Below are positions 144 to 3,100 of a stretch of 64,000 bases of DNA, one piece after another. The position numbers and the translations under genes were made by a program. Each line of letters opens with the position of its first letter. Position 1 is the stretch's first letter. The stretch is taken from the NCBI GenBank assembly GCA_029706075.1, contig JAINUG010000014.1, forward strand, positions 4,618,501 through 4,682,500, in the 5' to 3' direction. Origin of the DNA: Aldrovandia affinis (taxonomy: Eukaryota; Chordata; Actinopteri; Notacanthiformes; Halosauridae). A model generated the notes under the pieces. It was not told where the DNA came from, did not search any database, and saw only the letters and a list, made by a program, of their open reading frames with translations.

Positions 144-3100
144 CTACAGGGGGCAAGGAGGAGAGAGACCCATTTGTAAAGAGCAGTGGGCCCTGTGACA
201 CATTCACACTTCCCTTATTAGCACACTCATACTTCCTTTAAAACCACTCCCACACTGGGGAGTTATTACCTATATATATACATTTTTTTAAACATTTTTG
301 TTTATGCAGTTGCACCGCCTGTGGCAACAACGACCTATCCATTTATCACCCCCTCCCCCCTCCCACTTAAAAACACCTGAGTGAGGTTTGCTAGTATAGA
401 ATGCAAGCAGTGCTAGTGTCGCACACGCACACGCACGCACACTGGCTGCTTGCGTATATCCACGCACACAGAGACACAAATGCACATGTGCACAGTCATG
501 CACACAAGAACACAGGGATTCAATTAGTGAGGATTACAGGTCAGCTGTTTCAAAGTGAGAAACTCCCACGCTAATGATCCAGCTGGAACACTGCAAACAA
601 AATACACTTTCAAAGGGCTGCTTGAGCGTGTGTGTGTGAGTGATAAAGAGATTTAGATACCCGTGTGTGTGTAAGCGAGAGTTTTAGATACCTGTGTGTG
701 TGTGTGTATGTGAGTGAGTGAGTGAGAAAGAGATATAGATACCGGTGCGTGTGAGTGTAAGGTTTTGTTGGCATCCGCATGTGTGTGTGTGCGTGCATGT
801 GTTTGTGTGTGTATGCACGCATATGTGTGTGTTTGCGTAAAGGCCTGCCTGTAAAGGCCTGCCAGCTGTTGATTGTTTGTCATTAACGAAGACTTTGATC
901 CGTCCGAATTGCAAACATTCCGGCCGCCCTCCGGAAACGTGGGTTCATCCACGCGGAGGGGATGGGAGCTCTGCGCCAAGAGCGCGGCACAGGTGCGCTG
1001 CAAGCAACCACATCACCACAAAGTCCCCCTTTGAAGCCCCGCATGATTTTAAGGGCCTGAGCATGCCAGAAGGAGGGACCACCGGGAGAGACGGAGGGGC
1101 AATCTGCACCCAGGCAGGCCTGCCCATTCAAAGCGGACACTTCTGTTAAACTCACTCTGCCCTGGCCAAACCTGCCGCTCTTTGCGCTTTGGGTAAACAA
1201 TGTTGTACACATTTTGGCATGGGTTCACTTGTAAACATGTGTTGGTAATGGGTCCGTCTCTACACCACGCATGCTGCAGACCTAGGTCAAGTATATGAAC
1301 TCTTTAGATGCCAGTAAAACTTAACTGCACTTAAAATACAGTAAAATACTCCAGACGACCCCTGAACATTTTCAATGAAACATGTTACTAACCATACTGT
1401 ACAATCATACAGAAAGAAGGAGAATTTTGTTCTGCATTTTGCTTAAAGTAGACGTTTCTTGTAAAAATGTGTCAGTAATCTGTAGGACTTTACTTGTGTG
1501 TAATGTATTAAATATTTGACCCAGCTGTGTTAGGCAGTAAAAACTCAAACCTGGTGTTGTTCTTGAACTTGAAGAAGTAGTGCAAGCAGTTGTGTTAGGC
1601 AGTAAAAACTCAAACCTGATGTTGTTCTTGAACTTGAGGAAGTAGTGCAAGCAGTTGTGTTAGGCAGTAAAAACTCAAACCTGGTGTTGTTCTTGAACTT
1701 GAGGAAGTAGTGCAAGCAGTTGTGTTAGGCAGTAAAAACTGAAACCTGGTGTTGTTCTTGAACTTGAGGAAGTAGTGCAAGCAGTTGATGCAGTTGTGGG
1801 GTCCGGGGCCCTCACAGCCGTTCTCATTGCATTCGGTGTCGCAGGGGCCTGGAGAGAGAGAAGCACGCACACACACACACACTGGTGATGCCACAAACAC
1901 TGGCCAAGCCATACACTCACACGCTAGCACACACACACGCTAGCTCACACTCTCACACACACACACACACACACACACACACACACTGGACACACTGGAC
2001 ACACTGGACACACCATAAACACTAGCTTTCCCCAAATGTCTGACTGGAGACCGCAGGTTGACGGTTGGGGCAGTAAAGTTCACAGGCCGCCCCTGTAATG
2101 ACCGGACAGGTGTGTCTCAACACTTACCTGCACAGTAAAGTGATCAAAGGCAGCCCTCTGGGCAATCTGAGAACAAGGCCCCCACAAGGATCGCCATGAT
2201 AACGCTCCAATACAGCACGAGAACACACCCTCTCCTTCCTGGTTTAAATTTTGCTTGGAGTTCAGTGTATTAAAACACCCCCCTGCCCTTTAATTTACCA
2301 GGGAGTTCAGTGTTGAACTGGATTCTTTAATATACTATGGGTCTTTAATATAACCTTCAGGTGAGGGCTTTAACATTCCTAATTGTTTAGTGTTTTAATG
2401 TACCCACGTGTTCAGTGTTTTAATCAACCTTGTTGTTCTTTAATATGTCCATGTGTTGAGTGAACTGGGAGTCTGGCTGACAGCTCAAAGTGTATTACAG
2501 GGTTCCCACTCATATCAAATGTCCATTTTCCATGACATGTCTATGACAAATGTAATGTTTTCAATGACTTGTGGGGGACCTGTGAGGCATTGTGTGTGTG
2601 TGTGTGTGTGTGTGTATGTGTGTGTGAGAGAGAGAACAGCTCGGGCAGATGGCAACAACGTTGGCAGGGGAACAGATATTTTGCAGTAATGTTATCGGAA
2701 AAGAAAGAAAGAAATGTATAACGTTATATGGAATCAGAAACTTCCATGACATTTCCATGACATATAGCTTTTTCATCAATTTCCATGACATGTCCATGAC
2801 TTTCCATGGCAGAATACTTTTCAAGATTTTTCCATGACGTGTGCGAGTGTGGGGGCACCCAGCTTTCAATCATCTCAAATGAGTCTCACTGAGATCGTAG
2901 CATCAGACAAAGGGAGGGGCCAACAATGATCTCCAAAACCCCTAGACAAGTCAGACCAGACAGAGGAAGGTCCATCCCACCCCGACTTTCAGCTGGGGTG
3001 GAAATATCAGTGGGGTGTGGATCCTGCACCTCTGAGAGTGTGCGTGTGACATGCAGTCAGATGCAGGGCACGAGTGGCCGTGGGAGGTTTGTTTGTTTTA

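Follow-up and report, generated by a model that had tools for sequence, protein, structure and literature searches.

The window analysed here is a 64,000-nucleotide stretch of the Aldrovandia affinis genome (assembly of 1.22 Gb in 2576 contigs), taken from a contig of 9.3 Mb. It carries exons of a pcsk5 gene on the minus strand. Near its first position lie exons 14 to 16, with a tandem array at the end of exon 15 and an in-frame stop codon in exon 16. The number of exon 15 is that of a preliminary description of this DNA, which had also named the gene. That identification was upheld, and specified as pcsk5b, by protein search and alignment. The search with the assembled exons generated 218 matches. 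Among the 120 listed, most were fish PCSK5 proteins; the leading ones were named pcsk5b or were unnamed fish proteins, at 76–83% over the searched region, consistent with a pcsk5b relationship. Identity over 603 aa was 96.7% to pcsk5b of the eel Synaphobranchus kaupii (P0031), 93.2% to Scleropages, 85.6% to herring and 63.7% to P0059, a protein named pcsk5a.

A paralog is found on contig C2200, which we take to be pcsk5a. Thirty-five colinear exon cores were picked by hand in both genes; the cores do not cover every exon end, and a further shared exon, near 48890-48747, was left out. With the two paralogs aligned, only the core of pcsk5b exon 16 is split by a stop, and the other 34 are uninterrupted frames. 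Since exon 16 is the sole split core, the gene appears otherwise kept, which fits either a bypass of the stop or a very recent lesion.

The program TRF identified a tandem repeat at window positions 1522-1787, running from the 3' end of exon 15 into the beginning of intron 15 on the minus strand. It has a period of 65, 4.1 copies, 97% matches, 0% indels and a score of 504. The units, at 1522-1586, 1587-1651, 1652-1716 and 1717-1781, differ pairwise at 1–3 positions, the donor +5 base among them. The four exact-period 65-bp copies of the preliminary description were thus recovered. Its division of each unit into 42 exon and 23 intron nucleotides is one valid register, but 36 + 29 is equally good because CAGTTG (1782-1787) and CAGCTG (1522-1527), at the two edges of the array, are almost the same. 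Each unit holds an exon end, a splice site and an intron start.

The private differences between units speak against an assembler having pasted one copy four times. The 152,501 bases surrounding the array contain 0 N bases. A search of the genome with 1400-1900, in which 40/117 candidates were scored, returned one full-length match, one match to the paralog exon and 38 matches to a dispersed element. No second copy besides the paralog's exons was found in this search or in one with 1-160.

Exon 15, measured from its conserved donor, is 103 nt long (1746..1848, minus strand), enters in phase 1 and leaves in phase 2, and its protein is conserved in homologs. Donor 1 (CAG|GTTTCA, 1740..1748) ends the exon at 1746 and keeps the frame. 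The other three candidates are all CAG|GTTTGA, also on the minus strand. Donor 2 (1675..1683, candidate exon end 1681) adds 65 nt and donor 3 (1610..1618, candidate exon end 1616) adds 130 nt; both shift the frame, and the donor 3 site includes the TGA at 1612-1610. Donor 4 (1545..1553, candidate exon end 1551) adds 195 nt and stays in frame but passes through that TGA. The four exon ends, the single GTTTCA and the three GTTTGA are as first described, and translation of the modelled isoforms agreed with the frame shifts and the stop assigned to the copies.

Donor strength was evaluated in three ways. A donor matrix was built from 55 other donors picked by eye, 27 from pcsk5b and 28 from the paralog; the two exon 15 donors, the pcsk5b exon 16 donor and unclear exon ends were excluded. 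The donors were also scored with a human donor matrix and by pairing with the U1 5' end. With our own matrix donor 1 scored -0.09 (0/55 lower) and the copies 2.94 (3/55 lower), against a median of 7.98 for the 55. The paralog's counterpart of donor 1, CAG|GTTAGA, scored 4.95 (10/55 lower). The human matrix gave 0.27, 4.02 and 7.00 for donor 1, the copies and the paralog donor, with 0, 3 and 20 of the 55 lower. U1 duplex energies were -5.6, -6.4 and -7.1 kcal/mol, respectively (median of the 55, -7.7), and 19/55, 22/55 and 25/55 other donors pair no more strongly. Donor 1 had been described as looking weaker than its copies. By weight matrix it is indeed the lowest, but the gap in U1 duplex energy is just 0.8 kcal/mol; it is a poor donor in sequence, with a modest deficit in pairing energy. 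Because the paralog has CAG|GTTAGA, the +5 G is probably ancestral, with C in copy 1 as the derived base; one paralog is the basis for this. Competition among the four candidate donors is plausible.

Exon 16 also bears on what the message can yield. The part of this exon inside the window is 1..143 (minus strand), and its conserved long form goes 50 nt past the window to a GC-type donor, ACG|GCAAGC (~C446:4618450). This donor is weak (own matrix 1.26, 0/55 lower; U1 -3.5 kcal/mol); that of the paralog is GCG|GTGAGT. An in-frame TAG lies at 83..85 (minus strand) and reads CK*C. The exon 15-16 junction was located in 116/120 listed homologs, the exceptions being P0073, P0095, P0108 and P0118. 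In every one of these 116, NNTR is separated from the next Cys by a single residue; a pattern match gave this for 115, and the printed string for P0059, which the pattern had misread. Where pcsk5b has the TAG, each of them carries Lys or Arg, as scored by pattern in 114 and by inspection in P0059 and P0062. This Lys or Arg is read as the ancestral residue and not as proof of lesion-free species, because predicted proteins cannot contain stops. The claim that donor 1746 keeps the frame stands as regards phase, but the message is not open with the conserved long exon 16, where it meets the TAG (85-83). The earlier reading was incomplete because this stop changes what the frame-keeping donor can yield.

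The TAG itself sits in CGGT|GTAAGTAG, within an internal candidate donor GGT|GTAAGT (85..93, minus strand). From the paralog and the homologs, the ancestral codon was probably AAG. The presumed change from AAG to TAG turns GTAAGA (2.61) into GTAAGT (4.10, 7/55 lower) in our own matrix and moves U1 pairing from -5.3 to -6.1 kcal/mol. By these scores the base that makes the stop also strengthens a candidate splice site, as in nonsense-associated altered splicing. Splicing here would end the exon at 91, giving a 53-nt exon 16S (143-91) that is predicted to join exon 17 in frame as KKR-Y-GNVCRKC. Its use would take out 141 nt, so that 48 codons including the TAG become one Tyr and eight Cys are lost. 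Eight Cys is the count in one repeat of this cysteine-rich domain.

Exon 16 also has a rival site, GAG|GTCACC, close to window position 2. Its score of 4.53 in our own matrix, slightly above the 4.10 of the TAG-made donor, counts against a role for the latter, although the human matrix ranks the two the other way (2.30 versus 5.86). Use of the rival site would leave the TAG in place. We nevertheless regard the TAG-made donor as the best lead of the locus. The exon 15 donors were combined with the exon 16 forms in modelled isoforms that also contain exon 14 (126 nt, 3272..3397, minus strand). Only 3/15 are open through exon 18, namely donor 1 with exon 16S, donor 2 with exon 16 skipped, and exons 15 and 16 both skipped. 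With donor 1 and the long exon 16, the modelled reading frame is closed by the TAG.

The explanation that we prefer, tentatively and at rather less than even confidence, is that the array leaves weak competing donors and partly stopped messages, while full-length protein is made by bypass of the TAG in exon 16. The array would have left four weak AG|GT donors, of which the exon-proximal one probably lost its +5 G. Most likely some transcript would be spliced at a downstream copy and run into a premature stop, perhaps to be degraded, and the remainder would use donor 1746. Since exon 16 carries the TAG, full-length protein would need a second event. This could be exon 16S, formed through the donor that the TAG completes, or joint skipping of exons 15 and 16, which leaves the frame intact. 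Against this explanation, U1 pairing sets donor 1 apart from the copies by a mere 0.8 kcal/mol, and residues from the downstream copies or a short exon 16 junction are present in 0/116 homologs, although these may lack the array and the TAG.

It is also quite possible, if somewhat less probable, that the array is inert. The copies would then be ordinary intron, 1746 would be used nearly always with no effect of the array, and the TAG would be a base error or a rare allele that has nothing to do with it. Minisatellites abound in these surroundings. Tandem repeats with a period of at least 10 make up 7.3% of the 152.5 kb of sequence surrounding pcsk5b and 8.2% of the corresponding 90 kb at the paralog; they touch or lie within 20 bp of 8/35 and 6/35 exon cores, respectively, which are upper counts as cores can reach into introns. 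In a region so rich in minisatellites an array-forming event is not strange. Donor 1 pairs with U1 at an energy within the normal range, and the exon end is conserved in 116/116 homologs in which the junction was found. Against this, donor 1 is the lowest of all matrix-scored donors, and within 195 nt of it are three copies that score better.

Several lesions do stand together in two adjoining exons, and a paralog exists. The gene copy, or at least its exon 15-16 segment, might therefore be losing function, with the array, the lost +5 G, the TAG and the GC donor as separate hits under relaxed selection. We consider such early decay unlikely, as each of the other 34 exon cores is an uninterrupted aligned frame and, around the array, the protein shares 96.7% identity with its Synaphobranchus kaupii counterpart.

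The paralog bears on a further reading. It has a partial tandem copy of its own exon 15 end, 30 bp of which 28 are identical, 45 bp apart (L010 4708-4737 and 4753-4782). In an ungapped comparison this repeat scored 24, whereas 500 single-base shuffles of the 180-bp segment gave scores no higher than 11. It was not reported by TRF and was missed by a local exon-duplicate scan with low-complexity masking. Because the period (45 versus 65) and the intronic part differ, a separate duplication event in the paralog is suggested. One ancestral duplication common to both paralogs is disfavoured on the same grounds, and because the second paralog copy is 28/30 identical to the exon though probably intronic; repeated homogenisation may be an alternative. 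That the same exon end was duplicated in each paralog may reflect chance, a hotspot or selection, between which two cases cannot decide.

One could suppose that exons 15 and 16 of pcsk5b are being re-spliced jointly. Rather than simply abolishing function, the TAG would become intron through the GTAAGT donor, which would replace the weak GC donor and remove one eight-cysteine repeat, and the upstream donor array would set the level of productive mRNA. The exon 15 end, a weak site in each paralog and duplicated independently in both, would then suggest a hotspot or selection in favour of spare donors. We find this more doubtful still.

Least probable by far is that an intron is being created, or splicing proceeds recursively, within the array, with the GT of one copy joined to the AG of a later copy, since removal of whole copies would yield the same mRNAs as the four donors, the original exon end would still need donor 1, and a 65-nt intron would be near the vertebrate minimum. 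AG|GT is present at 4/4 copies, as the model of intron gain by AGGT tandem duplication expects, each copy shows by eye a pyrimidine-rich stretch and a motif, CTAAC, that resembles a branch point, and cases of the model have been reported (PMC4974935).

Minisatellites that span an exon-intron boundary, as this array does, are a known kind of structure. Human paralogs in segmental duplications have internal tandem repeats at exon-intron boundaries, with ~30-bp units and ~4 repeats on average (PMC2812944). As that report presents them, these too are minisatellite copies across a boundary, able to change splicing and gene structure. Transcripts were examined there and novel introns inferred, whereas pcsk5b has four copies of one donor, known from sequence, as are the pcsk5b features in the comparisons that follow. 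In potato, a tandem duplication across a boundary made an intron (PMC4974935). It shares with pcsk5b the duplication over an exon-intron boundary and an AGGT per copy; as described, it lies on the 3' side of the intron and the new intron was detected, whereas the pcsk5b array crosses the 5' side. For the TAG, the closest likeness considered is MAP3K1 c.2254C>T, a case of nonsense-associated altered splicing proven by RT-PCR, with 39 aa lost (PMC7567082). By that account the base that makes the stop also makes a donor and gives an in-frame deletion. In pcsk5b, the GT pre-existed, the change improves +6 and the predicted loss is 141 nt. DOK7 intron 4 (PMC5585400), as reported, likewise has neighbouring donors on one exon, one choice of which shifts the frame; these are two unlike sites measured in cells, whereas pcsk5b has four near-identical ones.

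Natural copies of one donor that differ at the +5 base and in position offer a ready test of how the spliceosome chooses among near-identical sites. With a TAG-made donor close by, the locus might reveal in what way a gene can live with a stop codon or be reshaped by it. Should only ordinary splicing occur, the array is a harmless minisatellite.

The intron-side edge of the array, CAGCTG (1522-1527), is also the right end of the dispersed element. This old element occupies 1276..1527, without an assigned strand and with limits set by eye, and has inverted-repeat-like ends (CAGACCTAGGTCAAG... / ...TTGACCCAGCTG). Seven fetched genomic relatives resemble the window copy at 74–78%. The array may have arisen by a tandem duplication joined at a near-match between CAACTG of exon 15 (gene strand) and the CAGCTG end of the element. 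Such an event would have copied the exon end with its donor, and slippage or unequal exchange could then have raised the copies to four. The idea that intron 15 is itself an introner, a mobile element starting at the donor, was rejected, because the element ends at ~1527 and has neither the donor nor the first 23 intron nucleotides.

Other repeats were observed in the window. Minisatellites at 14382-14525 (41–45 bp units) and 17355-17603 (43 bp units) lie at most 20 bp from the acceptor side of two other pcsk5b exon cores. A long tandem array with a 28-bp unit spans 34911-35641, with ~18 copies over 34911-35429 in one TRF row. The local exon-duplicate scan gave further pcsk5b matches at core 7 (18 bp, offset 234) and core 10 (27 bp at 85%, offset -100). 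Transposase-like fragments, presumably of Tc1/mariner type, are present at ~22883-23617 (minus strand) and have relatives near the paralog.
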